Shown piece by piece: positions 15-45,319 of a DNA stretch of 50,013 bases (positions are counted from its first letter, which is position 1; each line of letters begins with the position of its first letter). The DNA comes from Planctomycetota bacterium (GTDB taxonomy: Bacteria; Planctomycetota; Phycisphaerae; Phycisphaerales; SM1A02), in NCBI GenBank assembly GCA_016872915.1, contig VGYQ01000009.1, forward strand, positions 1 to 50,013. The letters run 5' to 3'. The notes beneath the pieces were generated by a model that saw only the letters and a program-made list of their open reading frames with translations, was not told the origin of the DNA and did no database searches. The position numbers were made by a program, and so were the translations under genes.

Positions 15-20
15 TAGTCT
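15..20 (+). promoter_or_regulatory. -10-like element for truB
   Basis: TAGTCT lies 9 nt before the GTG start of truB, with no Shine-Dalgarno sequence between. This fits the TANNNT-plus-start pattern seen before many genes here and suggests a very short or absent leader. The tag at 17-19 could also be the stop codon of an upstream gene cut by the window edge. Confidence 0.4.
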
Positions 21-29
21 AGCGAACGA

Positions 30-767
30 GTGAAGCGTTCTGCAGAGGGCCATGAAAGAGGACTCGATGGCATCCTGCTCGTGGACAAGCCCATCGGCCC
101 CACAAGCATGCGCGCGGTCGAGCGCGTGCGCCGCGCGGCGGGCGGGGTGCGCTGTGGACATGCGGGGACGCTCGATCCGCTGGCGAGCGGGCTGCTCGTG
201 ATTGGGCTTGGGTCATGCACGAAGCAGTTGAGTCAGTGGATGGCGGGTGACAAGCGGTATGAGAGTGTGATGGATTTGTCGGCGTTCACGGCCACGGACG
301 ACAGTGAGGGAGCGATGGAAGTTGTGGAGGTGGCGCTGCCGCCCTCGCGTGCGGTGGTCGAGAGTGCCGTGCGTTCGTTCGTGGGAGAGATCATGCAGGC
401 GCCGCCTGCGTTCAGCGCGGTCAAGATTGCCGGCCGGCGTGCGTATGACTTGGCCAGGCGCGAGGTGCGTGCGGGTGGCGATGCGGGGTCGGTGCAGCCG
501 CAGGCGCGCGCCGTGCGTGTGCATGGGATTGATGTGGTCGCGTGGGAGTGGCCGCTGCTGACGGTGCGGATTCACTGCGACAAGGGTTTCTATGTGCGCA
601 GCCTCGCGCGTGATCTTGGGAGGGCGCTTGGCACGGGCGGGTTCTGCCGATCGATCCGCCGAACCTGGAGCGCACCATTTCGAGTGGAGGATGCGCTGGC
701 GCTCGATGCGCTGCCGCAGCGGTTGCTGCAGGAACACCTGCGTGCGGCGCCAGAGGTTCAGGGCTGA
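30..767 (+). CDS. truB: tRNA pseudouridine(55) synthase TruB
   Basis: Makes pseudouridine at position 55 in the T-loop of tRNAs, in the cytoplasm. The 245-aa protein carries the TruB signature near its N-terminus (LLVDKPIGPTS at about 16-26) and the catalytic motif GHAGTLDPLASG at 43-54, with the nucleophilic aspartate at residue 49. The K-GFYVRSLARDLG segment typical of the family is near residue 190. It is on the short side for TruB and has no clear extra C-terminal PUA domain. The start is GTG at 30, chosen because it is the only in-frame start ahead of the conserved core. Its 3' end overlaps the convergent lspA by 10 nt. Confidence 0.93.
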   Translation: MKRSAEGHERGLDGILLVDKPIGPTSMRAVERVRRAAGGVRCGHAGTLDPLASGLLVIGLGSCTKQLSQWMAGDKRYESVMDLSAFTATDDSEGAMEVVEVALPPSRAVVESAVRSFVGEIMQAPPAFSAVKIAGRRAYDLARREVRAGGDAGSVQPQARAVRVHGIDVVAWEWPLLTVRIHCDKGFYVRSLARDLGRALGTGGFCRSIRRTWSAPFRVEDALALDALPQRLLQEHLRAAPEVQG

Positions 768-1402
768 GCGGCGGTGCTGCGCGCGGCTTTGCTGGCGGCG
801 CGTGCGGCTGCATCGGCGCGGATCGACTGCAGAATCAGGATCGCCATGCCGATCAGGAGAACGACATCGGCGATGTTGAAGACCCACGGGAAGATCTCGC
901 GCGATCCGCCAGGCCACGAGAGATTGAACGGCAGATCGCGGCGCGGCAGCATGTGGAGGAAGTCACGCACGGCGCCGAATGTGATGCGGTCGTAGAGGTT
1001 GCCGATGCCACCTGCGAGGACGAGACCGAGTGCGACGTGTGCCAGAGTGGAACGCGCACGCGTCCAGAACGCGAAGAGGAAGAGACCAACTGAGACCGCC
1101 ACCACGGTGAGCACAATGAACATGCCGCGTGCGTTCTGCCCGATGCCAAAGACGGCGCCGTGGTTGACCACGAGATGGAAGTCGAGCAGGTCGGGCGAGA
1201 GGACACGAATGCCGCTGTGCCATGGCAAGCGGTAAGAGGGGTCTGCCACGACTTCACGCGGCGCAAGGATGATGGGGTCGCCCGCGACCGTGGCGAAGGC
1301 TGCGTGCTTGCTCCAGAGATCCGCGCCGAGCGCGAGCGCCCACACGCAGAGCAGCACGGCCCACGCACGCGGCGAGCGCCACGCAGGGCCGTCGGCGTTC
1401 AC
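758..1402 (-). CDS. lspA: Lipoprotein signal peptidase LspA (signal peptidase II)
   Basis: Cleaves signal peptides of diacylglyceryl-modified prolipoproteins in the inner membrane. The family blocks are present in order: N-terminal membrane segment (AWAVLLCVWALALGADLWSK), VNHGAVFGIG, GGIGNLYDR with the first catalytic aspartate, VRDFL, and FNIADVVLL with the second. About 214 aa from the GTG at 1402. This GTG shares a GTGA overlap with the stop codon of the upstream DksA-like gene, which implies translational coupling; a longer reading from 1459 would run deep into that gene. The window encodes several lipobox proteins (for example 26349 and mltA) that would be substrates. Confidence 0.92.
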   Translation of the reverse strand: MNADGPAWRSPRAWAVLLCVWALALGADLWSKHAAFATVAGDPIILAPREVVADPSYRLPWHSGIRVLSPDLLDFHLVVNHGAVFGIGQNARGMFIVLTVVAVSVGLFLFAFWTRARSTLAHVALGLVLAGGIGNLYDRITFGAVRDFLHMLPRRDLPFNLSWPGGSREIFPWVFNIADVVLLIGMAILILQSIRADAAARAASKAARSTAAQP

Positions 1403-2379
1403 ACAAGACCCCTGCTCTTCTCCATGATCCGCTCGGACTCGACCGTGTACTTCGCCCATGGCTTTGCATCGAGTCGCCCTTTGGGAATGGGCTTGCCTGT
1501 CATGAGGCAGAGACCGTAGGTGAGGTCCTTGATGCGTGCGAGCGCGTCGTCCACTTCCCGGACGATCTCGCGGTCGTGCTGCGCGAACTCCAACGCGAAA
1601 CCCTGCTCGAATGTGTCGGTACCGATGTCCGCCATGTGCAGCGGCATCGTGGAAAGGCCGCCGTCGCTGCTCTTGAGCGCTTCACGTTCCGTGTCATCCA
1701 CGCGATCCACAAGCTCCGTGCGCAGTCGAAGCAAAACATCGTGGTAGCGGTCGAGATCTCGCGCAGACAGCTTCGTCTTTCCAAGCTTGAGTGGGGCCGG
1801 CTCCTGCTCCACCGCGGGCGCGGCCTTCGGTGCCGCCTTGCGCTTGGCGACCTTGATTCCCTTCATGGAGAGAACGCGCACACGGCGACCATTGATCACC
1901 ACGAAGCCGGCAGGCGCCTTCTGCGTGCTTGCCGCCTGAACGGCGGCTTCTGCAACGGATCGCGCATTGGCAAAGTCGATCTTCTTGCGTGTCTCTTTTG
2001 GCTTCTCGCCCGCGCGCGGTGGCTTTGCCTTCGGGCGCTGCTTCGCAATGACTGGCGGCGGCGCGCCCTTGGAGCGCTTGGGCGGCGGCGGTGGCGGGCC
2101 CACGATGCTCTCGGGCATCTCGTACACCTTTTTCGGCGGCGGCAGTTTGGTCAGCTGCGGTGCGGTGGGCGGTGCCTGCTTTTTGGCGATGAGCGTGGGC
2201 ATCGGCTTCGATCCCCCGACGGTCTTGCCGCCCGACTTCCCTGATGCCTTGCCAGCCGCCTTGGCGGCCTTTTTGTCCTTCTCACGATCCTTGCCACCAC
2301 GGGCCATCGAACGAGATGCGGCTTTTTTCTTTGCTGCCACGCGTGGGTCCTCCTGGTTCGACTCCAACAGCGCTGCCAT
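1399..2379 (-). CDS. DksA/TraR-like protein with degenerate zinc finger and long basic N-terminus
   Basis: The C-terminal 120 residues look like DksA/TraR: a coiled-coil region (DRYHDVLLRLRTELVDRV ... ALARIKDLTYG) followed by YGLCLMTGKPIPKGRLDAKP. In the family this finger is normally C-x-x-C...C-x-x-C; here only the first cysteine remains, so zinc binding is doubtful. The first 200 residues are Lys/Ala/Pro-rich and low in complexity, with proline runs. The frame stays open to a TTG at 2433, but that TTG is the first triplet of a good -35 box, so I place the start at the ATG at 2379 (326 aa). The gene is coupled to lspA. DksA proteins bind RNA polymerase with ppGpp; whether this one does is inference. 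Confidence 0.75.
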   Translation of the reverse strand: MAALLESNQEDPRVAAKKKAASRSMARGGKDREKDKKAAKAAGKASGKSGGKTVGGSKPMPTLIAKKQAPPTAPQLTKLPPPKKVYEMPESIVGPPPPPPKRSKGAPPPVIAKQRPKAKPPRAGEKPKETRKKIDFANARSVAEAAVQAASTQKAPAGFVVINGRRVRVLSMKGIKVAKRKAAPKAAPAVEQEPAPLKLGKTKLSARDLDRYHDVLLRLRTELVDRVDDTEREALKSSDGGLSTMPLHMADIGTDTFEQGFALEFAQHDREIVREVDDALARIKDLTYGLCLMTGKPIPKGRLDAKPWAKYTVESERIMEKSRGLV

Positions 2380-2404
2380 TCTGCGCTCGGTCGACAGACC
2401 TTCG

Positions 2405-2433
2405 ATCTTATCGAAATCACGCCAAAAAGTCAA
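2405..2433 (-). promoter_or_regulatory. Sigma-70-type promoter of the DksA-like gene and lspA
   Basis: On the minus strand TTGACT (2433-2428) is followed after exactly 17 nt by TAAGAT (2410-2405). Transcription should start near 2398, about 19 nt before the ATG at 2379. This is the best classical promoter in the first 10 kb, and it decides the start of the gene. Confidence 0.75.
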
Positions 2434-2485: not shown

Positions 2486-3451
2486 TCAGCGCGGAGCACC
2501 GATTCGGCGGAACTTCTCGTAGCGCTGCGAGAGCAGTGTTTCGGTGTCGATCTTTGTGAGGTGCGTCAACTGCTCGACGATCCATGCCTGAAGCGCCTGC
2601 GATGCGGCGCGCGGATTTCGGTGCGCGCCGCCCACGGGCTCACGGATCACCGCATCCACGAGGCCGTTTGCAAGATTGTCCTTTGCCGTGAGTGCCAGCG
2701 CCTTCGCGGCCTGTGGATTGGTGCGCTCGTTCGCCTCCTTCCAGAGGATTGCCGCGCATCCCTCGGGCGAGATCACGGAGTACCACGCGTTCTCCATCAT
2801 CGCCACGCGATCGGAGACCGCGATGCCGAGCGCGCCGCCCGATCCGCCCTCGCCGATGATGATCGACACGATTGGCGTGCGCATGCGACTCATCTCACGG
2901 AGGTTGACTGCGATCGCCTCTGCCTGTCCGCGCTGCTCGCTATCGATGCCTGGGTACGCGCCCGGCGTGTCCACGAGCGTCACGATCGGCAGTCGGAACT
3001 TCTCCGCGAGACGCATCTTCAGCAGCGCCTTGCGGTAGCCCTCTGGGTTGGCGCAGCCGAATCTGCAGGCAATGCGTTCAGGCGTGGTGCGCCCCTTCTG
3101 GTGACCAACAAGCAGCACCTTGAACGCCCCCAGCCGAGCGAAACCCGTGACGATCGCGGGGTCATCCGCAAAGCGGCGGTCGCCGTGCAACGGGCAAAAG
3201 TCGCGGCAGATGAGGTCGACATAGTCGAGCGTCTGCGGCCGCGCAGGGTGCCGAGCCACGCGGACCGTTTGCCAGGGGGTGAGTTCGCGGTAGGTCTTCT
3301 CCAGGACGGTGGTGTGCGTGGCGCGCAGCGTCGCCATTTCGTCAGGTGCCGCCGTAGCGGATGCCTCGAGCGCTGCGATCTGCCGTTCCACCTCGGCCAC
3401 GGGCTGCTCAAAATCAAGCAGCGCGACCGACCCAATCGAGTTCTGGGTCAT
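2486..3451 (-). CDS. accA: Acetyl-CoA carboxylase carboxyltransferase subunit alpha
   Basis: Alpha subunit of the carboxyltransferase that moves the carboxyl group from biotin carrier protein to acetyl-CoA, the first step of fatty acid synthesis. The 321-aa length is typical. Family markers are an N-terminal helical pair (DFEQPVAEVERQIAALEAS), the segment PWQTVRVARHPARPQTLDYV, DTPGAYPGIDSEQRGQAEAI, GEGGSGGALG and YSVISPEGCAAILWK. The ATG at 3451 opens 6 nt after a -10-like TACCAT. The gene is divergent from proC across 34 nt and lies 106 nt upstream of the DksA-like gene, which has its own promoter. Confidence 0.95.
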   Translation of the reverse strand: MTQNSIGSVALLDFEQPVAEVERQIAALEASATAAPDEMATLRATHTTVLEKTYRELTPWQTVRVARHPARPQTLDYVDLICRDFCPLHGDRRFADDPAIVTGFARLGAFKVLLVGHQKGRTTPERIACRFGCANPEGYRKALLKMRLAEKFRLPIVTLVDTPGAYPGIDSEQRGQAEAIAVNLREMSRMRTPIVSIIIGEGGSGGALGIAVSDRVAMMENAWYSVISPEGCAAILWKEANERTNPQAAKALALTAKDNLANGLVDAVIREPVGGAHRNPRAASQALQAWIVEQLTHLTKIDTETLLSQRYEKFRRIGAPR

Positions 3452-3457
3452 AGGCGA

Positions 3458-3463
3458 ATGGTA
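3458..3463 (-). promoter_or_regulatory. -10-like element for accA
   Basis: TACCAT on the minus strand ends 6 nt before the accA ATG; there is no room for a Shine-Dalgarno sequence. It suggests a leaderless accA transcript. No -35 is visible at the usual distance. Confidence 0.5.
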
Positions 3464-3473: not shown

Positions 3474-3479
3474 TATTGT
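3474..3479 (+). promoter_or_regulatory. -10-like element for proC
   Basis: TGCTATTGT (an extended -10 with TATTGT at 3474-3479) sits 6 nt before the proC ATG. Initiation would fall on or next to the start codon. It faces the accA element, only 10 nt away, in the same 34-nt gap. Confidence 0.55.
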
Positions 3480-3485: not shown

Positions 3486-4331
3486 ATGGCTGAAACAGTT
3501 GCGGTGGTTGGTTTCGGCAGCATGGGAACCGCGCTCGTGAAGGGCTGCATGCGTGCGTCGGTCTACACCGCGAAACAGTTCACAATCGTCGATCCTGATC
3601 CGGAGGCCCGCGAACGCGCCATGCAGATTGGCTGCAACGCGACGGCCGACCTCGGGTGTGCGACGGATGCCGACATCGTTGTGTTGGCCGTGAAGCCGCA
3701 GTCGTTCCCCGACGTCGCAGCAAGCATCGGACTTCTCAAGCCAGGCACGCTAGTCATCTCCGTGATGGCTGGCGTTTCCACCACCCGTCTGACTGAAGCC
3801 TTCGGCGCAGGCATTCACACGGTGCGCTGCATGCCGAATGTGGCAGCACAAGTGGGGCTTGCAGTCACGACCTATGCGACCGTCACCGAGTGCTCCGATG
3901 CCAACCGCGCGCGGGCACTTCGCGTGCTCGGGTCCATCGGTTCGACCGTGGAGATTTCAGAGCATCTCTTTGACGCAGCAACCGCGACGAGCGGATCGGG
4001 CCCCGCATACCTCTTCCTCTTGGCGGAGTCGATGATCGAGAGCGCGATGCGTCTGGGCTTCGACCGCCCGACGGCCGACCGACTCGTGCGCCAATCACTG
4101 CTTGGCGCATCCACGCTGCTTGCGCGTGGTGACCGCAATCCCGCGGAACTCCGGGGCATGGTGACCAGCCAAGGCGGCACGACGAGCGCAGCGATGGCAG
4201 TGTTTGAGTCGCATGGGTTCCAGTCCATGATGCACAACGCGCTGCGTGCTGCGCGGGATCGTGGACGTGATCTTGCGGCGACTGCCGCGCGGCAGTCCGC
4301 TCCCCCGCCTGCTGTCACGGGCGGCACATGA
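3486..4331 (+). CDS. proC: Pyrroline-5-carboxylate reductase
   Basis: Reduces 1-pyrroline-5-carboxylate to proline with NAD(P)H, the last step of proline synthesis. The Rossmann motif VVGFGSMG is at residues 8-15, followed by VLAVKPQSF, the middle block MPNVAAQVG, and the conserved C-terminal block SGSGPAYLFLLAESM ... GGTTSAAM. Length 281 aa against about 270 in the family. The ATG at 3486 gives the usual short N-terminus (MAETVAVVGFG); upstream in-frame codons would run into accA. The stop overlaps the next gene's ATG (ATGA), so a biosynthetic gene is coupled to an ABC transporter. Confidence 0.94.
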   Translation: MAETVAVVGFGSMGTALVKGCMRASVYTAKQFTIVDPDPEARERAMQIGCNATADLGCATDADIVVLAVKPQSFPDVAASIGLLKPGTLVISVMAGVSTTRLTEAFGAGIHTVRCMPNVAAQVGLAVTTYATVTECSDANRARALRVLGSIGSTVEISEHLFDAATATSGSGPAYLFLLAESMIESAMRLGFDRPTADRLVRQSLLGASTLLARGDRNPAELRGMVTSQGGTTSAAMAVFESHGFQSMMHNALRAARDRGRDLAATAARQSAPPPAVTGGT

Positions 4332-5320: not shown

Positions 5321-6399
5321 CCCAGACAGCCGCGATCTTTCTCAGCGCCTACCGCGAACTCAGTGCGCGGCGCCTCTTCTGGCTCGCGCTTGTCATCAAT
5401 GTGCTCGTGGTGGCCCTCTTCGCGTCTCTTGGCATCAACGAGCAAGGCATCAGTTTCCTTGGGTGGACCTTCGATAGCCCCTTCTACAACAGCACCACAA
5501 CCTCGCCCGAAACTTTCTACAAGTCGCTCTTTGTTGCGCTCGGCGTGGACTGGTGGCTCGGGCTGATCGCCACGCTGCTCGCGCTCGTGACGACATGCGG
5601 CATCATCCCCGATCTGGTCGCGCCAGGCTCGATCGATCTGCTGCTGGCCAAGCCCATTGGCCGCGCGCGCCTCTTCCTCACGAAGTATGCGACTGGGCTG
5701 CTGTTCGCAGCCCTGCAAGTCACCGTCTTTTCACTCGCCAGTTTTGCTGCGATTGGTCTGCGCGGCAATGTGTGGGAATGGGGCCTCTTCCTCGCGGTGC
5801 CCATCGTTACCTTCTTTTACAGCTTGCTCTACTGCATCTGCGCCCTCGTGGGAATGCTGACCAAATCATCGGTCGCATCACTGATCCTGACGCTGCTGGC
5901 ATGGACAGTCATCTTCTCGGTGAACCTTTCCGAGTCGATTGTGGTGGCGGGTCGAATCGCCAACTCACTCGAGACCGTCGCGATCGAGAAGGAACTTACG
6001 GCGGGCGTGACAGAGGATGGATCCGAGCCGCTTGAGGAGAGCGATTTGGAAACGCTGCGGTCGGATCTGCAGAGGGCGAAGGACAATCGCGTCGACTGGG
6101 ACCGCGCGTACTTCTGGTTCCACGGCATCAAGTCGTTCGTGCCCAAAACAGGTGACACGCTCGAGCTGCTCGATCGTTGGCTGCTCGCATCTGCTTCCAT
6201 GCCCACGCGCGACCCTGATTCGGAGCGCGGACCGCAGCGCGCATTCGGTCCGCGCCGCGTGAAGCGAGGCGAGTACGAGCGCGCACTCAAAGAGGAGGAG
6301 CGTTCACGCTCGATCGCGTGGGTCCTTGGGACAAGCGCCGCATTCGAGGCGGGAATCCTGCTGCTTGCGACCGTTGTCTTTGTACGGCGCGATTACTGA
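5317..6399 (+). CDS. ABC-2 type transporter permease
   Basis: Membrane partner of the preceding ATPase, 360 aa. It has an N-terminal cytoplasmic helix leading into a first membrane segment (LFWLALVINVLVVALFASLG), then further segments near 85-105 (GLIATLLALVTTCGIIPDLV), 130-155, 160-190 and 195-215. A hydrophilic loop of about 120 residues carrying acidic stretches follows, and a last segment (AFEAGILLLATVVFV) closes the protein. The phrase PGSIDLLLAKPIGRARLFLTKY is typical of ABC-2 permeases of the NosY/CcmB-like kind. The large loop before the last helix is probably extracytoplasmic. It ends 7 nt inside the convergent mltA gene. Confidence 0.85.
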   Translation: MTQTAAIFLSAYRELSARRLFWLALVINVLVVALFASLGINEQGISFLGWTFDSPFYNSTTTSPETFYKSLFVALGVDWWLGLIATLLALVTTCGIIPDLVAPGSIDLLLAKPIGRARLFLTKYATGLLFAALQVTVFSLASFAAIGLRGNVWEWGLFLAVPIVTFFYSLLYCICALVGMLTKSSVASLILTLLAWTVIFSVNLSESIVVAGRIANSLETVAIEKELTAGVTEDGSEPLEESDLETLRSDLQRAKDNRVDWDRAYFWFHGIKSFVPKTGDTLELLDRWLLASASMPTRDPDSERGPQRAFGPRRVKRGEYERALKEEERSRSIAWVLGTSAAFEAGILLLATVVFVRRDY

Positions 6400-7688
6400 G
6401 CGCGGCGCGCGGGCTTCTTGCCCGTTGCTGGCGCTTTCGGGGCATCCCTCGCCGGCAGCGGGAACTGCGAAACATAGTCAGGCTTCAGGAAGAAGTAATA
6501 GAGCGTTCCCTCGGCATACTGACCGCCCGCGAGAATCTCTGCGCTCGGACCGATGCCCATGAAGATGTCCGCGCGCCCAGGTGCGCGGATCGCACCGCCC
6601 GTGTCCTGATCGAGCATGAAGCGCTTGAACACCGTCTTGGATGAGCCGTAGGTGGCGCCCATGGTGTCGACGAATGTGACGCCGCCGGGCGGATACACGC
6701 TCTTGTCCGTGGCAAGCGACGCCTGATCGGTCACCTTGACGCCGAGGCTGCCTGCGGGCCACGTCTTGCCGTCGTATTCCTGGAAGAACACGAAACGGTT
6801 GTTCATATTGATGTAACGCTCGACTGTCGTCGGATCTTTCTCGTAGAGCCGGCGCACCGCCGTGAGACTGAGTTGATCCTCAGGGATCAGTCCCGCTTTC
6901 ATGAGGCTCGTGCCCAGACCGACGTACTCGCCGTCGGTCGCGCCCGCGTAGCCGATGAACAGGATGCGTCCGTCGGTCAGCGTCAACTTGGCGCTGCCGT
7001 TGATCTGCACGATGTACGCATCGAGTGCGGTCGGGAACCACGCGAGTTCAAGCCCCTTCAGCATCCCGCTCGATTCGATCTCGGCGCGGTTTGGCCAAGG
7101 TTCGACTGAACTCTCGGACACTCGGCGACCGAGCGCCTTGCCCGTGACGGGATCGGTCTCGAGTTCCTTCGGTCGTCGGTACACGGGGAAGTCGAAGCCG
7201 GGCTGTCGAGTCAGGCTCGCGCGGAACTCCGGCGCGAAGTAACCGGTGAACAGCACGCCACCTTTGCCATTCCATCCCTTGGTCTGGTAGCAGTCGAACA
7301 TCTGCTTCAGTGCTGCTGTGAACGCGTCCGCGTTCCCGCTGTCGGTCAGCACCTGTTGGAACGCCATGATGCTTGCGGATGCCTGATCCCATGTGGCGAC
7401 ATCGGGGAAGGGAAACATTTGCGGAAATCGGGTGCGGCTCGATGGCGCCTCGAACCACTTCTGGCTCTGCATGAGCGCCTCGGTGAGATACGCGTCGCGC
7501 CCATCCCACGCCTTCGTGAGGTCGGGCCACGGCTCCTCTGGCCCGAGTTTGCGAAGCGCGCACTCGCCGGGCCCGAGCGGGCGGGCGAAGTCAGCGGTGG
7601 GTGCGGGCGGTGGCGGCGTCTCGCAGCCTGAAAGCAGGGCGAGCGTCAGGGTGGCAAGAATGGATGTGTGGTGGATGCGTCCGTGCAT
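6393..7688 (-). CDS. mltA: Membrane-bound lytic murein transglycosylase A (lipoprotein)
   Basis: Cleaves the MurNAc-GlcNAc bond of peptidoglycan to a 1,6-anhydro end. The 431-aa protein starts with a lipoprotein signal (LALLSGC lipobox, cysteine about residue 22). It has the MltA barrel domain (GVLFTGYFAPEFRAS, FPVYRRP, LELAWFPTALDAYIVQINGS) and ends with a 3D domain (DQDTGGAIRAPGRADIFMG) that carries the catalytic aspartate. The C-terminus has a short basic tail. The ATG at 7688 lies 8 nt after TATCAT. It is divergent from tatA. In a planctomycete this is evidence for active murein turnover alongside murD, ftsW and murG. Confidence 0.9.
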   Translation of the reverse strand: MHGRIHHTSILATLTLALLSGCETPPPPAPTADFARPLGPGECALRKLGPEEPWPDLTKAWDGRDAYLTEALMQSQKWFEAPSSRTRFPQMFPFPDVATWDQASASIMAFQQVLTDSGNADAFTAALKQMFDCYQTKGWNGKGGVLFTGYFAPEFRASLTRQPGFDFPVYRRPKELETDPVTGKALGRRVSESSVEPWPNRAEIESSGMLKGLELAWFPTALDAYIVQINGSAKLTLTDGRILFIGYAGATDGEYVGLGTSLMKAGLIPEDQLSLTAVRRLYEKDPTTVERYINMNNRFVFFQEYDGKTWPAGSLGVKVTDQASLATDKSVYPPGGVTFVDTMGATYGSSKTVFKRFMLDQDTGGAIRAPGRADIFMGIGPSAEILAGGQYAEGTLYYFFLKPDYVSQFPLPARDAPKAPATGKKPARRAQ

Positions 7689-7696: not shown

Positions 7697-7702
7697 ATGA
7701 TA
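7697..7702 (-). promoter_or_regulatory. -10-like element for mltA
   Basis: TATCAT on the minus strand, 8 nt before the mltA ATG, with the pyrimidine-rich CTTTCCCC between, so no ribosome binding site is possible. Confidence 0.45.
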
Positions 7703-7737: not shown

Positions 7738-7743
7738 TATCAT
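7738..7743 (+). promoter_or_regulatory. -10-like element for tatA
   Basis: TATCAT is followed after 6 nt by an ATG at 7750 that is in frame with tatA. A second ATG at 7765 is preceded by GGAGG (7752-7756). Either the mRNA is leaderless from 7750, or it begins there and uses the GGAGG for 7765. Confidence 0.45.
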
Positions 7744-7764
7744 CGGCAGATGGAGGTAAATGCC

Positions 7765-9278: not shown

Positions 9279-12058
9279 GTGTGCATGCTGCAGGAACTGC
9301 ACGCGCTTCCACATCAAGAGGCGACGAGATGCTCGGGAAGATCCACACGGACACATGCAGTCACCGCCCGCCAGGATCGGTGGTTCGGCTGACTGGCTTG
9401 GCTCGGGCGGGCTGGCCCCTGTCACGGTTGACGAGGGGGCTGGCCCTGCCCGCAGCGTGCGCATCTGCAATGACTTTCGCGGCTCTGGCGGGGCGGACGC
9501 ATGCTCGCTCGCCGGAGTGTCGGCTTTCGTGCGCGCGCAGCGGTGATGCGATCGAGGTGGTCGACCCTCGCCTCATCGACTCGTTCCGCGCGACGGCGGC
9601 GAGTCTTCAGGATGCCTTCGCTGCGTCGGACCACATGCTGCTTGTTCGGCGCAAGCAGGCAGTGGATCTTTCCCTTGCTGCACCACTCCTGCTGCAGCAG
9701 ATCATGCGCGGCGATCCGCCGCGGCAATGGCTTGCCCTGTTCGACGATTGTTACGGCACCGCCACTGCTTCGGCGCAGGCGGAGCCTCCCCCGGCAGAGA
9801 TCGTTCGCTCACTCGAAGCAGTTGCACGAGTTGGCGGCCCAATCGGAATCCGTTGGCGTTCGCGTGCGCTGAGTGGCGGAGGCAGCGAGTGCGGAATGAC
9901 GATCGAGTGGGCTGGACAAGTGGCAGCGGATGGCTTTGAAGTCCGAAGCGATTGGTGCAGCCCATGCGTGGGACAGCGCGGCGGCAACTACCCGCTGCCT
10001 GCGGATCGGACGGTCGTTGCGTGTGGGGCGCAGTCCATGAGCGTCCGGGTGGAGGGCAGCACGGCGCAGTTGACCGAGCCTTGGCCGAACGAAACCCCGC
10101 AGTTCATTCATCTTGGTGATGTCTACGACCCGCTCGACACGCTTCGCGCTGCCTGGTGGACGCGGGCGATCGAACAGCGGCCTGACTCGTCCCGCGCTCG
10201 CAAGGTGTCCTGGGTGCCTCGGGCATCCGCAGCAGCGGACGAAGCTGCCACCCCAATCGCGGATGCGGTCACTGAAGGAGTAACCCGCTGGCAGATGCGC
10301 ATCGCGCTCCGCTCGTGTGCGGCGAGCCGAAGTGCAGGATTCGCGCTCACGCCGCGCGATACCGCACTGCATCAACTCGCGCTCCGTCCATCCACGGATG
10401 TGCCGCTCGTCGAGGATGGCAGCGTCTTGGAAGTTGACTTCGCATCAGCGTCCACATCGTTCACGAACGGGAGCCCGCAGCCCCTGCTGCTACCCCGGAC
10501 AATTCGCTGTCTGTCGGATGGGCACGAGACCTGGCGGTGTGACATCCTCCACATCGGCGCTGGATCCGTTGCATCAAGCGAGCGAAGCGCGGCGTGGTTT
10601 GCAGCGGTGGATGCACTGCAGCAAGTGCAGACCGCGTGGGATTTGTCGTTGCTGCCGCTCCCGACGCTCGACGAAACGCCCATGGAAATCGACCGAGCCA
10701 CGCGTCTTGCACAGTGCAGTGCGCGCGCGTGGTACGCGGGCATGCGATCCGACTGCCCACTGCTGTCGCAGGCGCTGCAGCATCTGCGGTTCACGCTCGA
10801 ACGCGATCTCGCATCCGGTGAGAGCGCAGCTTTGATGCTGGACGAACTCTGCTGCTTTGCCGAGTCGATGGCTGCGAGTGGGGCTTCGGATGCGGTTCTC
10901 ATGCTCTTGGAAACGCTCCACCTGAACGAAGCCGCTTCACTGCCTTCGTGGGAACAGCGCGCGGCGTGTCTGCGGGCGACAGCATCAGGGAGGTTCTGGC
11001 AGGCAGACCACATCGCGCGCGCTGCGCTTTCTGGCGACTCGACTGCAACGCAGCGCGAACTCTGGCAGCACATCCGTGAACAACTCTTGCCTTGGCGTCT
11101 TGCTCCGCTGCAATCGACTGCCGCAGGAGGCGATCAGGCGGTGATCGCACTTGGGTCGTGGATCGCCGCACGCGAGCACCAAGTAGGACTGTCTGATTCG
11201 ATTCACTTTCCACCGCAGGGCACGATCGATGGATTTCAGGCTGGCGCCTGCGCGCGTGAACTTTCGGCGATCTTCGCCGAGTGGGACCGCGCTCAAGGCA
11301 CGGGGGCAGGTGTTGGCGCGGGCGCGGGCGCGGGTGCTGGCGCAGGCGCGGGCACGGGTGCAGGTGTTGGCTCGGGCGCGGGGACTGGCGCAGGTGCGGG
11401 TGCAGGCGCTGGCGCTGGCGCAGGTGCGGGCGCGGGCACTGGCGCAGGTGCGGGTGCAGGTGCGGGTGCGGGCGCGGGCGCAGGCGCGGGTGCGGGCGCA
11501 GGCGCGGGTGCGGGTGCAGGTGCGGGTGCTGCGATGCCGAGCGCCTCGCGGGCCTCCGCTGCGGCGCGCTCACGCTTTGCTTGCTCAGTTGCTTCGAGCG
11601 CACGTATGAATGCCTCTTGCACTGCACCATCCCCATGCACCATCTCGCCACCGAGGTGCCCTGCCCCGCCCATCGCAAGCGCCACCGCAATCAATCCCAA
11701 TCGCCACCCCGCCACGAATGTGGGCGACGAAGTTCTTGCCTTTGAGCGCAACATTCCTGCTGTTGTCCACAGCACAAACAGCGCTGCCGTACAGCCAATC
11801 GCAGTCCAGCGATGCAGGAACAAATTCGATTCACCCTCCCCGTATGACTCTGCGTTCATCCATCCCGTAAAGCACGCGATCACGCCGCTGAGCGCAGCAA
11901 TCCAGATGCACGTGAACGCGAACGGCGATGGCGCTGCACGCCCCCGAAGTGCAGCCCAAATCTCGGCAACGGCCGCGAGCACAGCCATCGCCAACGGAAA
12001 GTGCAGCACAGCCGGATGCAGCGTGCCTGCAAAGAAAGCCCAAGCATCGGTGACTTGA
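9275..12058 (+). CDS. Predicted exported protein of unknown function; 3' third antisense to DUF2231 gene
   Basis: Open frame of 927 codons starting with GTG coupled to the previous gene (an ATG at 9329 behind AAGAGGCGACGAG is an alternative). A signal-like hydrophobic stretch (about 50-78) precedes a hydrophilic, Cys-containing region to about residue 675 that looks like real coding sequence but matches no family I know. From about 11302 the frame becomes a Gly-Ala repeat. After 11532 it runs antisense to a convincing membrane-protein gene, with low-complexity, unlikely residue order. I believe the gene is real up to about 11300. Whether the cell translates the remaining 250 codons is unknown; the natural stop may have been lost to repeat growth. 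Confidence 0.55.
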   Translation: MSVHAAGTARASTSRGDEMLGKIHTDTCSHRPPGSVVRLTGLARAGWPLSRLTRGLALPAACASAMTFAALAGRTHARSPECRLSCARSGDAIEVVDPRLIDSFRATAASLQDAFAASDHMLLVRRKQAVDLSLAAPLLLQQIMRGDPPRQWLALFDDCYGTATASAQAEPPPAEIVRSLEAVARVGGPIGIRWRSRALSGGGSECGMTIEWAGQVAADGFEVRSDWCSPCVGQRGGNYPLPADRTVVACGAQSMSVRVEGSTAQLTEPWPNETPQFIHLGDVYDPLDTLRAAWWTRAIEQRPDSSRARKVSWVPRASAAADEAATPIADAVTEGVTRWQMRIALRSCAASRSAGFALTPRDTALHQLALRPSTDVPLVEDGSVLEVDFASASTSFTNGSPQPLLLPRTIRCLSDGHETWRCDILHIGAGSVASSERSAAWFAAVDALQQVQTAWDLSLLPLPTLDETPMEIDRATRLAQCSARAWYAGMRSDCPLLSQALQHLRFTLERDLASGESAALMLDELCCFAESMAASGASDAVLMLLETLHLNEAASLPSWEQRAACLRATASGRFWQADHIARAALSGDSTATQRELWQHIREQLLPWRLAPLQSTAAGGDQAVIALGSWIAAREHQVGLSDSIHFPPQGTIDGFQAGACARELSAIFAEWDRAQGTGAGVGAGAGAGAGAGAGTGAGVGSGAGTGAGAGAGAGAGAGAGAGTGAGAGAGAGAGAGAGAGAGAGAGAGAGAGAAMPSASRASAAARSRFACSVASSARMNASCTAPSPCTISPPRCPAPPIASATAINPNRHPATNVGDEVLAFERNIPAVVHSTNSAAVQPIAVQRCRNKFDSPSPYDSAFIHPVKHAITPLSAAIQMHVNANGDGAARPRSAAQISATAASTAIANGKCSTAGCSVPAKKAQASVT

Positions 12059-12082: not shown

Positions 12083-12088
12083 AGGATA
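12083..12088 (-). promoter_or_regulatory. -10-like element for the DUF2231 gene
   Basis: TATCCT on the minus strand, 7 nt before the GTG at 12075, in the 30-nt gap after dinB. It supports separate, possibly leaderless, transcription. Confidence 0.45.
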
Positions 12089-13274: not shown

Positions 13275-13280
13275 AGACTA
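13275..13280 (-). promoter_or_regulatory. -10-like element for dinB
   Basis: TAGTCT on the minus strand, 8 nt before the dinB GTG; the intervening bases (GACGGGGC) are not a good ribosome site at that spacing. No LexA-like palindrome is evident nearby. Confidence 0.45.
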
Positions 13281-14529: not shown

Positions 14530-14534
14530 GGGCC

Positions 14535-15802: not shown

Positions 15803-15808
15803 TATCCT
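15803..15808 (+). promoter_or_regulatory. -10-like element for miaB
   Basis: TATCCT, 10 nt before the ATG at 15819; the gap is pyrimidine-rich (GCCCCACCCC) and holds no Shine-Dalgarno sequence. Confidence 0.4.
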
Positions 15809-20341: not shown

Positions 20342-20347
20342 TATCTT
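20342..20347 (+). promoter_or_regulatory. -10-like element for the metalloprotease gene
   Basis: TATCTT, 8 nt before the ATG at 20356, with TCATTACC between: no ribosome site, so leaderless or nearly so. Confidence 0.45.
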
Positions 20348-22668: not shown

Positions 22669-23360
22669 CGCAAAGGCTTTCGCATAACACACCTCGGGCT
22701 CGCACGGACCCGCTCGCTTGGACCGCAGTTGGGCTTGGTGCTGTGGCATGCTGCCCTCTTGCAGCGCTCGGAGGCTTTCTCACTGGCATACTCTCGCTGA
22801 TACGCATTCGACGGTCAGCCGGGCTGCTGGGGGGTACACGCGTTGCATGGCTGGGTGTCGCTCTCTCACTCGTCATCGGCGCGACATCTCTGCTCGTTGC
22901 AGAGCGCATTCAGGCGGCGCAGCTCACGGGCAATGTCTCAGATGTTCGAAGTGCGGTGGAGCAAACCCTCGGCGGCGGCCTCGATGCTTCCGCTTGGTGG
23001 ATCCCCGATACACATGCTGGATTGCCCGACTTCCAACGCGAGATGTCCGCGCTTCTCGCGCCCATCAAGGTGGGCGCGACAACACAAACGGAGACACTGG
23101 TCGGGAATCCGCCCATGGGCCGCTTCCGTCTGGTCGTACAGACCAGATCTGGGGATGCGATCGCGTCGGTCGAGGCACTGCTGATCACGGACTGGAACAC
23201 CTGGCTTCCCGGGCCACGCCTGCAAAGTATCGAGATCGCCATGCCGCGCGGCACAGCCGAAACATCGTCGGATTCAGCGCAGTCGTCCGATCTTGCAACC
23301 GTGCGTTTCCCGCGCGTTGACCATCATGAGGCGGGTGCTACCCTGCCACGTGATGGCTGA
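22650..23360 (+). CDS. DUF4190-like membrane protein, paralogue of the next gene
   Basis: Up to 236 aa; the start is unclear (TTG at 22650 is the best in-frame option and overlaps the protease gene by 19 nt). Two closely spaced membrane segments near the N-terminus (AVGLGAVACCPLAALGGFLT and VAWLGVALSLVIGATSLL), separated by an Arg-rich loop, match DUF4190. The rest is a soluble, presumably extracytoplasmic domain. It overlaps the following paralogue by 8 nt. Function unknown; its place in front of an Mla-type ATPase suggests an envelope role, which is inference. Confidence 0.6.
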   Translation: MGPLQLTQRLSHNTPRARTDPLAWTAVGLGAVACCPLAALGGFLTGILSLIRIRRSAGLLGGTRVAWLGVALSLVIGATSLLVAERIQAAQLTGNVSDVRSAVEQTLGGGLDASAWWIPDTHAGLPDFQREMSALLAPIKVGATTQTETLVGNPPMGRFRLVVQTRSGDAIASVEALLITDWNTWLPGPRLQSIEIAMPRGTAETSSDSAQSSDLATVRFPRVDHHEAGATLPRDG

Positions 23361-27361: not shown

Positions 27362-27367
27362 TATACT
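27362..27367 (+). promoter_or_regulatory. -10 element for the 27375 gene
   Basis: Near-consensus TATACT, 7 nt before the ATG at 27375, with CGGGTTC between. This is the strongest of the leaderless-type elements. TTGCAC lies 21 nt upstream, too far for a normal spacer. Confidence 0.6.
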
Positions 27368-30526: not shown

Positions 30527-30556
30527 TTCGACCCCGTGCTGCGCTGGACCTAGAGT
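30527..30556 (+). promoter_or_regulatory. Promoter of the BshB1-like gene
   Basis: TTCGAC (30527-30532), 18-nt spacer, TAGAGT (30551-30556), then 7 nt to the ATG at 30564. Both boxes are imperfect but well spaced; the transcript would begin at or next to the start codon. Confidence 0.5.
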
Positions 30557-31710: not shown

Positions 31711-31716
31711 GGTGCG

Positions 31717-31722
31717 AGTGTA
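31717..31722 (-). promoter_or_regulatory. -10-like element for dut
   Basis: TACACT on the minus strand, 6 nt (CGCACC) before the ATG at 31710. Confidence 0.45.
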
Positions 31723-31741
31723 GAGACTTTGCATCCACTGT

Positions 31742-31747
31742 TATCGT
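31742..31747 (+). promoter_or_regulatory. -10-like element for the zinc-ribbon gene
   Basis: TATCGT, 8 nt before the ATG at 31756, with GCGCGGCA between and no ribosome site. Shares the 45-nt dut intergenic gap. Confidence 0.45.
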
Positions 31748-31755
31748 GCGCGGCA

Positions 31756-38834: not shown

Positions 38835-38850
38835 AGGACCTGAAAGGCTA

Positions 38851-39891: not shown

Positions 39892-40619
39892 GGTGCTGGG
39901 GTGTTTGGAGCGCGATCTGCGTCCGGCACCACTGCAGGCGATACGGCACTCCGGCCGCCGAGCAGCGCTTCCTGCTTTCCCTCTCGAACATCAGCAACGA
40001 CCCGATCGACAGTCGCATCGCGCTGACGAGCATCCCGCTCGAGATCGGTGCGCATGGCACGAACCACCGCGTCAATCTCTGCCAGTTCCATCCCGCGCGA
40101 GCGCAAGTTCAGATCCACGAGCCTGCCCGCGAGCTCCCGTACGCGCCCCTCCGACTGCAGCGCCGCTGCTTCACCGCCCGCGCCGCGCTGCGCCAACCAT
40201 GCGCTACCCGCCTCCTCGAGTTCACCCTGCACGCGAATCTCCTCGATACGAAGCGCATAGAGCGCTGGCTTGCGAACGCGCAAGACTGCGAGCGCCGTGA
40301 GCCGCTTCCCAGCGCGCGCGACCGCCTCTTGAAACGCAGCAGGATCACTTGCGCGCGCCTGCTCCAGCATCGTCAGCAGTTCTGGGGAGACATCGCGCGC
40401 GACCTCGATGATCGTTTGAGGATCAGGCTGCGCTGCGGCCCCTTGCGAAGACTGTTCGAGCAGCGCAGGCAGCGGCAGAACGCGGTGCACAAGCCGTTCT
40501 GATCCGATGGCGAGCGAGCCCCATGCTGCAGTACACGCGACCGCCGCCGCGACAAGGACAGGATGCACGCGCACGGAAGGTCCGCCGCACGCTCCGTCGT
40601 TTGCAGAGTGATTTTTCAT
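39888..40619 (-). CDS. Membrane-anchored periplasmic helical protein, possible sensor
   Basis: 243 aa: a short N-terminus, a membrane segment or uncleaved signal (HPVLVAAAVACTAAWGSLAI), then an almost wholly helical, charged region (ELLTMLEQARASDPAAFQEA; RLVDLNLRSRGMELAEIDAV; TDLERDARQRDATVDRVVAD) and a Pro/Ala-rich tail. The composition and hairpin-like pattern recall CnrX/Spy/CpxP-type periplasmic sensors, but no metal-ligand motif is clear. Its place directly after the anti-sigma-like gene supports a sensor role; this is inference. Overlaps both neighbours by 4 nt. Confidence 0.6.
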   Translation of the reverse strand: MKNHSANDGACGGPSVRVHPVLVAAAVACTAAWGSLAIGSERLVHRVLPLPALLEQSSQGAAAQPDPQTIIEVARDVSPELLTMLEQARASDPAAFQEAVARAGKRLTALAVLRVRKPALYALRIEEIRVQGELEEAGSAWLAQRGAGGEAAALQSEGRVRELAGRLVDLNLRSRGMELAEIDAVVRAMRTDLERDARQRDATVDRVVADVREGKQEALLGGRSAVSPAVVPDADRAPNTPAP

Positions 40620-41182
40620 CGCACCCCCTGCGCTGCGAGCGCGATCAGTTGCACTTCGCTCACAAGCTTGCGATAGGACGCATCCCGCGCCCGGAGCAGA
40701 TCGATCGGATCATCAACGCTTTCGAGTGCACTGGATCGCACCTCCACGACATCACTATCCAAAAGCAGCGAGACAAGCACTGGCTCGGACGGCGTTTCAA
40801 CAAGAACGCCTGCGCCGACATCAACCGCTTGCGCCAAAGCTGGTGGTGCGCCATCGATGGGTGGCTGCTGCTGCGACTGGGGCCACAGGAACAGGGCGAC
40901 TCCGATTGCAGCGGCAACCAGTGCGGCCGCCACACGTCCCCAAGACCGGGTCCGCTGGGAGGGGAACCTCAGATTGCCCGGTGACAGCGACCCACGCGAA
41001 GCTGCCTCGAGGCGATCCACCAATCCCGCACGGTCCGCGAGGAGCTGGGTGCGCCGACGAAGGATGTCGCGGAGTTCCGGGCCCTCCGCCAAATCCGCGA
41101 GCTGCACGGCATGCCGCTCAGCATCTCCATTCGGCCCCTCCACGGGACCACCACCCTCACTGTGCTGTGGGTTCATCTGCAT
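40616..41182 (-). CDS. Putative single-pass anti-sigma factor
   Basis: 188 aa. About 80 N-terminal cytoplasmic residues with a helical stretch (GPELRDILRRRTQLLADRAG) precede one membrane helix (VAAALVAAAIGVALFLWP). An extracytoplasmic domain of about 85 residues follows (VLVSLLLDSDVVEVRSSALE). It starts 18 nt after the ECF sigma gene. The order sigma, single-pass protein, periplasmic protein is what is expected of a membrane anti-sigma factor. No zinc anti-sigma HxxxCxxC motif is visible, so the type is unassigned. Confidence 0.6.
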   Translation of the reverse strand: MQMNPQHSEGGGPVEGPNGDAERHAVQLADLAEGPELRDILRRRTQLLADRAGLVDRLEAASRGSLSPGNLRFPSQRTRSWGRVAAALVAAAIGVALFLWPQSQQQPPIDGAPPALAQAVDVGAGVLVETPSEPVLVSLLLDSDVVEVRSSALESVDDPIDLLRARDASYRKLVSEVQLIALAAQGVR

Positions 41183-41200: not shown

Positions 41201-41833
41201 CTACGGGATTGCATCGGAAGAAGCTCCTTTTTGCGTGCGCTCTATGGACGCACGAAGTCTGGCAACTGCCCTATGGTGGCGGGAAAGCAGGGTCCCGATC
41301 GGTTCCCCGAGTAAATCCGCCATCTGCTGGAAGCTCAAACCGCCAATATGGCGAAGATCAATGATTTCGCGGTCGGAAGGCGACAACTCTTGCATCGCCC
41401 GTTCCAGGTCGCGGATCCGAGGGTCGGGCTCCACAGGCGGCACGGGAGCCGCCGCAAAGGCAGGATCGCCGCTCGCACCACCGACCGCTTGCAGGTCGCC
41501 GGAAGGCCGCGCGTGGCGAGTCCGCCGCCGCATTTCATCTCGGAGGCGGTTTAGCGCGACCGTGAACACCCATGATTCAAAGCCGCTGACATCGGTCATG
41601 CTTGAGAGCTTCTCGGCGACCGTCACGAACACCGACTGCGCGATCTCCTCCGCGAGATCTGCATCACCGCACCGAGACCGCACGAGGGCAAAGACTCGCG
41701 GACCAAGTCGTTCGATGATCGTGCGCCATGCACGCTCAGTACCCAACCTTGCTGCCGGCCCCCTCTTGCCCTCGTCGCCTTGTGTGATCCGCTCGACGGC
41801 TCGGCGAAGATCGTCCGCGGGACCGTCAGTCAT
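41201..41833 (-). CDS. ECF-type RNA polymerase sigma factor
   Basis: 210 aa. Region 2 covers RLGPRVFALVRSRCGDADLA, EEIAQSVFVTVAEKL and FESWVFTVALNRLRDEMRRR. Region 4 is LSPSDREIIDLRHIGGLSFQ followed by MADLLGEPIGTLLSRHHRAV, a clear helix-turn-helix. No sigma-1.1 or region 3 is present. The ATG at 41833 has a good GGAGAAGG upstream, so unlike many genes here it has a proper ribosome site. It lies 24 nt after dnaB and starts the block leading to the peptide transporter, which it may control. Confidence 0.92.
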   Translation of the reverse strand: MTDGPADDLRRAVERITQGDEGKRGPAARLGTERAWRTIIERLGPRVFALVRSRCGDADLAEEIAQSVFVTVAEKLSSMTDVSGFESWVFTVALNRLRDEMRRRTRHARPSGDLQAVGGASGDPAFAAAPVPPVEPDPRIRDLERAMQELSPSDREIIDLRHIGGLSFQQMADLLGEPIGTLLSRHHRAVARLRASIERTQKGASSDAIP

Positions 41834-43677: not shown

Positions 43678-43735
43678 GTCTCTTTCAACCCCACTTTGTT
43701 TGATGTGCGTGTCACTTCAACGACCGACCCTGTCC

Positions 43736-43764
43736 AGTATTGACGCTTCGCACTGTCCAGTCAA
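43736..43764 (-). promoter_or_regulatory. Sigma-70-type promoter of HU-dnaB
   Basis: On the minus strand TTGACT (43764-43759), a 17-nt spacer, and AATACT (43741-43736). Start of transcription about 43729, leader about 52 nt. The TGA inside TTGACT is the stop codon of hldE. Confidence 0.7.
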
Positions 43765-45305
43765 GAGGCGCGACCCGCTGCGGCAACATTTCCACCACTT
43801 GTCAACTCGCTCCGCACACGATCCACCACCGAAGTGGTTGAAAGCCCGGGCCGATGTGCCAATATGCACAATTTTATGCCAAGTTCCTTGACAACTGCAG
43901 ATTCGTTGATTGCCTTCCCGTCGTAGTCCCCCCCCTTGACATACACGTCCGGAACGGTAGCGCGGAGCAGCGCTTCCGCAGTCGGCTCCTCGAAGATGGT
44001 GACGTAGTCGACCGATGCAAGTTCGCCGATGAGTTCCGCGCGGTCGCTCTCGCAGTAGATCGGACGCGTGGCGCCCTTGAGTGCGCGCACTTGCGCATCG
44101 CAGTTGAGTCCAACGACCAGAATGTTCCCGTGCGACTTCGCCTCCCGCAGGTAGGCGACATGGCCCGCGTGAAGCACATCGAAACATCCATTGGTCAGCA
44201 CGATCGTGCGGCCTGCTGCGCGGTGCGCCGCGATCTCCACCAGCAGGTCGGCGCGCGTTCGGAGTTTTCCTCGGACGGACTGGCTGAGTCGGATCACCTG
44301 GGCCTGCACTTCCGGCAGGGTGAACGCCCGCACGCCAAAGATCTCCACCTCCATGCCAGCCGCCACATTGGCAAGCGCGACGGCCTCTGGCCACGGCACA
44401 CGGTTTGCCGAAGCGCCAGCGAGCACGGCAAGCACCATGTCTCCGGCACCTGCCACGTCATAAACGGGGCGCGCCACCGTGGGCAGATGCTGTGCTTCAC
44501 CCGTTCGCTCCTGCAAAACGGCGCCAAAGCGATCCAGTGTGACAATCGCCGCGTCCAGATCGAGGGCGGTTCGCAGTTGTGCCGCGAGCACCTTTGATCC
44601 GGCGACCACATCGGTCGGATCGATCAGGCGGCCGACAGCCTTCTCCGCCTCGGAACGATTCGGCGTGATCGCCGTTGCACCTCGATAGCGACCATAATCA
44701 CTGATTGCAGCTGGATCGATCAGGACGGGAATCTTCCGCTGCCGACACCGCGCGATCACCTTCGCACAGAGTTCAGCGGAGCAGACTCCTTTGTTGTAAT
44801 CCTCGATGCACACCACATCACACCGTTCGATCTCTTGATCGATCACGCGCGAGATTTCAGCACGCACCGCTTCACTGATTGGTGCACGCGACTCAATATC
44901 GATTCGGAACATCTTCTGTGGATGGCGGTGCTGCGCACGCCCGATCAGCGATCGCTTCACCGTCGTGGGACGCGAGGGATCCGCGATCAGCCCATGTGTC
45001 GCGCAGCCGCCCTGTTCGAGGCATCGCCGAAGGACACTCCCCTCCTCATCACAACCGATCAAACCGACGCACGCCACTGTTCCACCGAGCGCCGCGGCAA
45101 AAACGGACACATTCCCCGCACCACCTGGCGTGTCGATCGTCGCTTTCGGCTCTCGCACGGCGAGCACGGGAACAGGGGCATCCGGGCTCAGTCGTTCCGC
45201 ATCCCCTTCGAGGGCTTGATCGAGCATGAAGTCCCCGATCACGAGCAGGCGGAACGCCTTCCAATTGCGAAGCGAGGCCAGCATGCGATCCTCAGTCGTC
45301 TGCAT
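43761..45305 (-). CDS. hldE: Bifunctional heptose-7-P kinase / heptose-1-P adenylyltransferase
   Basis: Makes ADP-heptose precursors for the LPS core. The N-terminal ribokinase-type domain (1-320) has VIGDFMLDQALEGDAERLSP, GGAGNVSVFAAALGG, SLIGRAQHRHPQKMFRIDIE-like wording and the catalytic GAGD (YDVAGAGDMVLAVLAG). The C-terminal nucleotidyltransferase domain has TNGCFDVLHAGHVAYLREAK (HxGH) and VKGGDYDGKAINESAVV. 514 aa, longer than the usual 475 by a tail and linker. The ATG at 45305 lies 12 nt from lpxK and behind its own -10-like element. Confidence 0.93.
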   Translation of the reverse strand: MQTTEDRMLASLRNWKAFRLLVIGDFMLDQALEGDAERLSPDAPVPVLAVREPKATIDTPGGAGNVSVFAAALGGTVACVGLIGCDEEGSVLRRCLEQGGCATHGLIADPSRPTTVKRSLIGRAQHRHPQKMFRIDIESRAPISEAVRAEISRVIDQEIERCDVVCIEDYNKGVCSAELCAKVIARCRQRKIPVLIDPAAISDYGRYRGATAITPNRSEAEKAVGRLIDPTDVVAGSKVLAAQLRTALDLDAAIVTLDRFGAVLQERTGEAQHLPTVARPVYDVAGAGDMVLAVLAGASANRVPWPEAVALANVAAGMEVEIFGVRAFTLPEVQAQVIRLSQSVRGKLRTRADLLVEIAAHRAAGRTIVLTNGCFDVLHAGHVAYLREAKSHGNILVVGLNCDAQVRALKGATRPIYCESDRAELIGELASVDYVTIFEEPTAEALLRATVPDVYVKGGDYDGKAINESAVVKELGIKLCILAHRPGLSTTSVVDRVRSELTSGGNVAAAGRAS

Positions 45306-45313
45306 GGGGGAAC

Positions 45314-45319
45314 AGGCTA
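45314..45319 (-). promoter_or_regulatory. -10-like element for hldE, overlapping the lpxK stop
   Basis: TAGCCT on the minus strand, 8 nt before the hldE ATG. Its TAG is the lpxK stop codon. The gap GTTCCCCC has no ribosome site. Confidence 0.4.

Follow-up and report, generated by a model that had tools for sequence, protein, structure and literature searches.

TANNNT hexamers a few nucleotides before start codons point to -10-only promoters and leaderless or nearly leaderless mRNAs in a Phycisphaerales planctomycete

Introduction

How are the first genes of transcription units expressed in a planctomycete in which the hexamer TANNNT (N, any nucleotide) recurs just before start codons? The question is raised by a stretch of 50,013 nucleotides (nt), here called the window, that forms the start of contig VGYQ01000009.1 in the 2.09-Mb assembly GCA_016872915.1 (90.6% complete) of a Planctomycetota bacterium placed in Phycisphaerales. 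A sequence-only reading of the window had listed 14 genes, none coupled to an upstream gene, with TANNNT 6 to 10 nt before the start codon and no Shine-Dalgarno (SD) sequence between, and had proposed widespread leaderless transcription. From the counts and comparisons presented below, we consider it very likely that TANNNT acts as a -10-only housekeeping promoter yielding leaderless or nearly leaderless mRNAs, in a manner resembling that of Deinococcus.

Results

TANNNT is concentrated before starts that are not coupled to an upstream gene

Positions of the hexamer relative to start codons were counted in a sample made up of the window and 40 stretches from the 26 largest contigs, together 850 kb or 41% of the assembly. 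Starts were called by a gene finder that relies on coding potential and a start-codon prior and makes no use of upstream signal. It called 699 genes, of which 16 were too close to an end; the remaining 683 were classified as uncoupled (511, with a divergent neighbor or a same-strand gap of at least 10 nt), coupled (157, with a gap of <10 nt), or lying at a stretch edge (15, not counted). TANNNT stood 6 to 10 nt before 117 of the 511 uncoupled starts, while 100 dinucleotide shuffles gave 10.0 ± 3.2 (maximum, 18), and windows of equal width 16 to 20, 26 to 30, and 36 to 40 nt upstream of the uncoupled starts held 10, 13, and 11 sites. The same spacings were occupied at 9 of 157 coupled starts and at 44 of 16,039 internal in-frame start-type codons. 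A first pass over 450 kb had given 62/268 uncoupled starts (divergent, 34/128; "far" class, 13/89; "mid" class, 15/51), 4/73 coupled starts, and 1/9 at stretch edges. When we restricted the count to genes with a single possible start and scored spacings of 5 to 12 nt, the hexamer was present at 28 of 58 uncoupled starts (48%; divergent, 17/29; far, 4/16; mid, 7/13) vs none of 26 coupled ones. Thus, the hexamer keeps to genes not coupled upstream, its chance level (~2% by shuffles) agrees with the "few percent" that the sequence-only reading had expected, and the pattern called widespread there extends beyond the window across 850 kb of the same genome.

The gene finder did make errors: it missed a zinc-ribbon gene, called a frame at 9635-12058 on the other strand across a DUF2231 gene, misplaced the start of dut, and put the start of a metalloprotease gene differently in two runs. 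Such misplaced starts (dut, and the metalloprotease gene in the 850-kb run) are what could be cited for a coincidence or an artefact of start calling, but we find this explanation scarcely credible: the starts were called blind to upstream signal, shuffles and internal codons yielded few sites, the signal was stronger at starts with a single candidate, the same gene finder gave hits at only 2 of 177 starts in Variovorax/Burkholderiales loci, and the hexamer is conserved in orthologues (see below).

The hexamer is specific and also precedes tRNA genes

When all 1,344 spaced three-letter patterns were ranked by enrichment near starts, TAnnnT came out on top (138 vs 23.5 at control positions; z = 23.7), and the same ranking applied to the Variovorax/Burkholderiales loci returned GAG, the SD core. 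Compared with other hexamers of equal A+T content, TANNNT was found at 120 of the 511 called starts, and ATNNNT, TTNNNA, and TNANNT were found at 18, 16, and 13; TNNNAT (52) and TNNANT (43) were higher but may represent the same sites (e.g., TACCAT or TACACT). The 137 uncoupled starts that carry TANNNT at 5 to 12 nt show a tendency to TAnnCT preceded by C, with flanks that are not A+T-rich. No -35 element was found at these 137 sites, where the information content stays at or below 0.08 bits at every position between -38 and -2 relative to the hexamer.

A hexamer at this position could in principle be translational, i.e., an A+T-rich, unstructured, or S1-binding stretch ahead of non-SD starts, and A+T bias at such starts elsewhere has been ascribed, as one alternative, to S1 binding in a survey of non-SD genes (PMC5397173). 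Here, that explanation appears very improbable, given the rarity of most equal-A+T hexamers, the composition of the flanks, the lack of a single site among the 26 unambiguous coupled starts, and the presence of the hexamer before genes that are not translated. In stretches of the same genome outside the window, 14 of 15 tRNA genes have TANNNT within 70 nt upstream, 7 to 36 nt from the mature end, as against 5.0 ± 1.6 of 15 in 200 shuffles (maximum, 9). Among the 24 tRNA genes found in the named relatives, 10 were examined and 8 have the hexamer. A hexamer that precedes untranslated tRNA genes is more readily ascribed to transcription than to translation, and the sequence evidence suggests that it is the housekeeping -10 element, one without a recognisable -35. 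As an explanation of promoters lacking a -35 element, we considered CarD and set it aside: the sole PF02559 match in this genome is to a 1143-aa frame that presumably encodes Mfd, and no stand-alone CarD was found in the genome, which is 90.6% complete.

Spacing and SD usage favor initiation at or near the start codon

At promoters of the sigma-70 type, the gap between the -10 hexamer and +1 is about six bases; RNA polymerase starts about 7 nt past the last base of the hexamer and prefers a purine. At the 511 uncoupled starts, sites at spacings of 3 to 13 nt numbered 1, 2, 4, 33, 32, 20, 17, 17, 10, 7, and 3. If the start codon must be transcribed and nothing is needed ahead of it, an abrupt onset at 6 nt (seen here as a rise from 4 sites at 5 nt to 33) is to be expected; a 6-nt spacing would make the start codon the site where transcription begins. 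The start-distance count against shuffles, which the sequence-only reading had proposed as a check, thus gives a sharp peak; the proposed range of 6 to 10 nt captures that peak, but the true spread is 6 to 12 nt.

The longer spacings bear on an alternative that accepts the hexamer as a genuine -10 element and gives most transcripts leaders of 1 to 6 nt. In its favor, 70 of the 137 sites lie at 8 to 12 nt, past the strict spacing of 6 to 7 nt. Against it, the mode is at 6 to 7 nt (64/137), and at longer spacings, purines are depleted from the seventh base to the start codon (observed, 72/249; expected on the basis of site-free genes, 103.3; p = 5e-5), a bias that would direct initiation onto the A or G with which the start codon begins. 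A similar spread is also seen in our positive control, plasmid MP1 of Deinococcus radiodurans (150 of 177 kb): 12 of 82 uncoupled and 0 of 30 coupled starts have the hexamer at 6 to 10 nt, windows at 16 to 20, 26 to 30, and 36 to 40 nt hold 3, 7, and 3 sites, and spacings of 6 to 11 nt occur 6, 3, 1, 2, 0, and 2 times. We therefore regard predominantly near-leaderless transcripts as possible but doubtful.

Starts with a site comprise 121 ATG, 16 GTG, and no TTG codons, and those without comprise 282, 76, and 16. An SD-like tetramer at -18 to -4 occurs in 11 of 137 starts with a site vs 92 of 374 without (p = 2e-5), and such tetramers are found at 10% of internal codons and 44% of coupled starts. 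The anti-SD sequence of the 16S rRNA is intact. The exclusion of SD sequences at hexamer-bearing starts, their presence at coupled starts, and the intact anti-SD together suggest that two modes of initiation, leaderless and SD-dependent, coexist in this genome.

The hexamer is conserved in relatives and looks lineage-limited

The closest AccA among the named relatives (98% identity) is from a Phycisphaerae metagenome genome (VGXN01000073); further AccA relatives are mostly titled Phycisphaerales, and several near ones are titled Planctomycetia or Singulisphaera. We looked for the hexamer at 5 to 12 nt before orthologues and accepted every in-frame start lying between -60 and +24 nt from the aligned first residue. 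In the named relatives L023 to L037, TANNNT precedes a start in every orthologue of accA, proC, mltA, and truB (Table 1), the spacing ranging from 6 to 12 nt, although three of these relatives have AccA proteins at least 91% identical to that of the window and add little. Five control hexamers reach 0 to 8 of 15 for accA and proC and 0 to 7 of 12 for mltA; for truB, ANNNTA reaches 13/13 because the site is symmetric. TANNNT is thus kept across orthologues while its middle letters vary. In the family at large, it precedes a plausible start in 15 of 29 orthologues of miaB and 14 of 29 of hldE (control hexamers, 0 to 6 of 29 for each), indicating that single genes retain or lose it.

Counts in other genomes and loci are given in Table 2. 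The trait is clear in the family and fainter elsewhere in the order (apparently Phycisphaerales), so that it looks lineage-limited. In the ranking of three-letter patterns, TAnnnT came first in one of five family genera (G145) and was outranked in the other four (by SD-like patterns in G132 and G140); it was second in the pooled miaB/hldE loci and outside the top eight in the set of other named Phycisphaerales. One locus titled Phycisphaerales, L064, has the hexamer at 6 to 10 nt before 1 of 15 starts. A phylum-wide trait is unsupported by the pooled samples from outside the class; individually, G043 and G056 of that set may possess it (7/46 and 7/50 at 6 to 10 nt).

Table 2. Uncoupled starts with TANNNT in Phycisphaerales, other planctomycetes, and control loci
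Sample	At 5-12 nt	At 25-32 nt	Unambiguous starts, 5-12 nt	Remarks
Own genome	137/511	20	28/58	
One genome of the same genus	10/57	1	1/7	
Five genera of the family	45/255	10	6/28	
miaB/hldE loci of the family	30/132	4	6/14	
13 named near relatives	63/119	6	15/18	Counts not independent, with orthologues around accA recurring
13 other named Phycisphaerales/Phycisphaerae loci	24/123	8	4/15	
Five genomes of the order outside the family	28/205	15	9/27 (4 at 25-32 nt)	Borderline, p = 0.05
Two genomes of the class outside the order	11/63	11	3/19	
Seven genomes of the phylum outside the class	39/303	33	11/61 (5 at 25-32 nt)	
Ten named planctomycete loci not titled Phycisphaerae	4/81	1	0/6	Six titled Planctomycetota alone
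13 Variovorax/Burkholderiales loci	2/177	7	0/29	Negative control for the gene finder

Sites in the window and divergent gene pairs

The window holds 16 sites (Table 1), next to genes whose identities were mostly checked by Pfam. All 14 hexamers of the sequence-only reading are present at the spacings claimed, and that list is real throughout but incomplete, having overlooked the sites before the starts at 23353 and 38834. None of the SD-like tetramers GGAG, GAGG, and AGGA lies between hexamer and start at any of the 16 sites, the 14 listed earlier included.

Table 1. TANNNT hexamers before start codons in the window
Gene	Hexamer	Position	Strand	Spacing (nt)	Start codon	Remarks
truB (30-767)	TAGTCT	15..20	+	9	GTG	TANNNT in 13/13 orthologues, two different hexamers
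accA (2486-3451)	TACCAT	3458..3463	-	6	ATG	15/15 orthologues, six different hexamers, all TANNNT
proC (3486-4331)	TATTGT	3474..3479	+	6	ATG	15/15 orthologues, four different hexamers
mltA (6393-7688)	TATCAT	7697..7702	-	8	ATG	12/12 orthologues, six different hexamers
tatA	TATCAT	7738..7743	+	6	ATG 7750 ("alternative")	Probable start 7765
DUF2231 gene (11293-12075)	TATCCT	12083..12088	-	7	GTG	
dinB (12106-13266)	TAGTCT	13275..13280	-	8	GTG	TAGTCT likewise upstream in L024, sole relative with a match
miaB (15819-17483)	TATCCT	15803..15808	+	10	ATG	
Metalloprotease gene (20356-22668)	TATCTT	20342..20347	+	8	ATG	
Gene at 23353	TACCCT	23339..23344	+	8	ATG 23353	Absent from the earlier list
AAA-domain gene at 27375	TATACT	27362..27367	+	7	ATG	
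PIG-L family (bshB1-like) gene (30564-31241)	TAGAGT	30551..30556	+	7	ATG	
dut	TACACT	31717..31722	-	6	ATG 31710	
Zinc-ribbon gene (31756-32064)	TATCGT	31742..31747	+	8	ATG	
SBP_bac_5 (solute-binding-protein) gene	TAGCCT	38845..38850	-	10	ATG 38834	Absent from the earlier list
hldE	TAGCCT	45314..45319	-	8	ATG 45305	

Several sites belong to divergent gene pairs; e.g., the accA and proC promoters face each other within a 34-nt gap. Among the 119 divergent pairs counted in the sample, none of the 19 with 0 to 49 nt between the starts is without a TANNNT, and 10 of these 19 carry one on both strands. Gaps below 50 nt leave scant space for two leaders with SD sequences. With 50 to 99 nt between the starts (29 pairs), 9 have it on both strands, 10 on one, and 10 on neither; with at least 100 nt (65 pairs), the figures are 2, 22, and 41; and of 6 overlapping divergent calls, 2 have it on one strand and 4 on neither. 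The count includes accA/proC and leaves dut/zinc-ribbon outside, as the zinc-ribbon gene was missed. The starts of that pair are 45 nt apart (31710-31756), with one TANNNT per strand, and dut probably begins at 31710, not at the longest-open-reading-frame start at 31734.

The -10 sequence of truB, TAGTCTA (15-21), is symmetric, and in relatives, the same seven bases read on the opposite strand (TAGACTA or TACACTA) form a -10-like box for a tRNA-Ser gene that diverges from truB. This sharing was seen in 6 of 6 relatives inspected (L024, L025, L026, L030, L033, and L037) out of 12 with that tRNA. Bidirectional promoters are known in bacteria, and it looks as if a single box serves both truB and tRNA-Ser.

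The tatA gene departs from the pattern. The hexamer does stand 6 nt before the alternative start at 7750, as the sequence-only reading had noted, but a leaderless start there is improbable. Between ATG 7750 and a second ATG, at 7765, lies the sequence GGAGG, the codon equivalent to 7750 is AAG in the relative L025, and several other relatives have a GGAG-type leader. Given the AAG codon and the GGAG leaders in relatives, tatA is probably an ordinary leadered gene with GGAGG in a short leader and a start at 7765. Its hexamer is retained in L024 and L025, with an SD sequence after it. The predicted leader of ~15 nt makes tatA suited as a leadered control next to mltA.

Other neighboring genes include a DksA-type zinc-finger gene (1399-2307, minus strand) that adjoins accA and has a lysine-rich, fast-changing N terminus, which in the L032 counterpart contains a repeated AAGGCA run. 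An ECF-like sigma-70 family gene (41201-41833, minus strand), missed by the gene finder, is followed downstream by a 188-aa gene with a membrane-like segment (40616-41182, minus strand) that could encode the anti-sigma partner of the adjoining sigma factor.

Discussion

A proposed mode of gene expression

Position and specificity of the hexamer, its conservation, its association with tRNA genes, the exclusion of SD sequences, and the intact anti-SD were all read directly; from them, we infer that the hexamer sets the point at which transcription starts and that translation is initiated at the 5'-terminal codon. In this lineage, TANNNT (in extended form, c-TAnnCT) would serve as the housekeeping -10 element, with no recognisable -35 required. 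In at most about one-half of the genes heading a transcription unit, the hexamer would end 6 to 12 nt before the start codon, and RNA polymerase would begin on, or a few nucleotides from, its A or G. The resulting mRNA would be too short at the 5' end to hold an SD sequence and would be translated leaderless or with a very short leader, while operon-internal genes and some leadered first genes would retain SD initiation.

Several observations weigh against this interpretation. The signal is visible solely in start-anchored counts: unanchored counting of TANNNT-N6-ATG in the whole genome gave 80 + 90 vs 88 + 104 for the reversed-pattern control, and such counting showed a clear excess in one of seven genomes (G121). 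De novo motif discovery by zero-or-one-occurrence-per-sequence (ZOOPS) expectation maximization saturated on uninformative motifs, and the exhaustive three-letter ranking was used instead. Of the 511 uncoupled starts called, 374 lack TANNNT at 5 to 12 nt, in part owing to start-calling errors, and the figure of 48% is drawn from 58 genes selected for having one possible start. The preference for a pyrimidine at -1 is weak (99/137 vs 233/374; p = 0.04), and the spacings of 8 to 12 nt could yield leaders of 1 to 6 nt.

Beyond this genome, we propose with modest confidence that Phycisphaerales possess a -10-only system in which about half of the unit-first genes are by default expressed from leaderless or near-leaderless mRNA, and which lets divergent genes be packed with gaps of 20 to 50 nt, sometimes around one symmetric TANNNTA box. 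They would then be a further, probably independent lineage with this trait besides Actinobacteria and Deinococcota. The host is probably from freshwater, and the sequence evidence extends leaderless expression to a planctomycete lineage of lakes and sea. Because the trait looks lineage-limited, this group lends itself to a natural comparison of when, and for what reason, leaderless translation arises. In practical terms, gene callers that rely on SD sequences may misplace starts in these genomes, and the spacing from TANNNT can aid their correction.

Comparison with known systems

The mechanism is a known one, and it is the lineage that is apparently undescribed for it; in the open-access literature (PubMed Central), we found no motif-level or transcript-level account for planctomycetes. 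A survey of non-SD genes included one planctomycete genome, with few SD genes, and ascribed the base bias to leaderless mRNA and/or S1 (PMC5397173). Its passages on such genes do not name TANNNT and leave the two causes unseparated, whereas the motif, its spacing, its use at tRNA genes, and its lineage limits are given here. The "TA-led" genes of Zheng et al. (2011) have TANNNT with the first T ~12 bp upstream of the start and, in the high-G+C form, uninformative middle positions (PMC3160421); both the position and the uninformative middle are common to that class and the sites described here. The bacterial groups with leaderless genes named in the main text of that survey omit Planctomycetes, and the word is absent from that text. 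In Mycobacterium smegmatis, ANNNT/TANNNT is the housekeeping -10 element, an ATG or GTG is sufficient, and 5'-end mapping found leaders of 0 to 5 nt in 24% of transcripts (PMC6448022). Our organism belongs to another phylum, and the leaderless share given here is a sequence estimate, whereas the one in M. smegmatis was mapped.

The closest parallel is that drawn by the sequence-only reading, with leaderless genes of Deinococcus, and the similar spacing in the MP1 control upholds it. In D. radiodurans and Deinococcus-Thermus, TANNNT is described just before the open reading frame, mostly without a -35 element, with about one third of genes leaderless and a separate class of genes with a ribosome-binding site, and the -10 motif is backed by reporter and mutation experiments (PMC12340547). 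The two systems share TANNNT adjoining the start, the lack of a -35 element, the separate SD-type genes, and the spacing; they differ in phylum, in the tendency of the hexamer described here to TAnnCT with a preceding C, and in that it is known from sequence alone.

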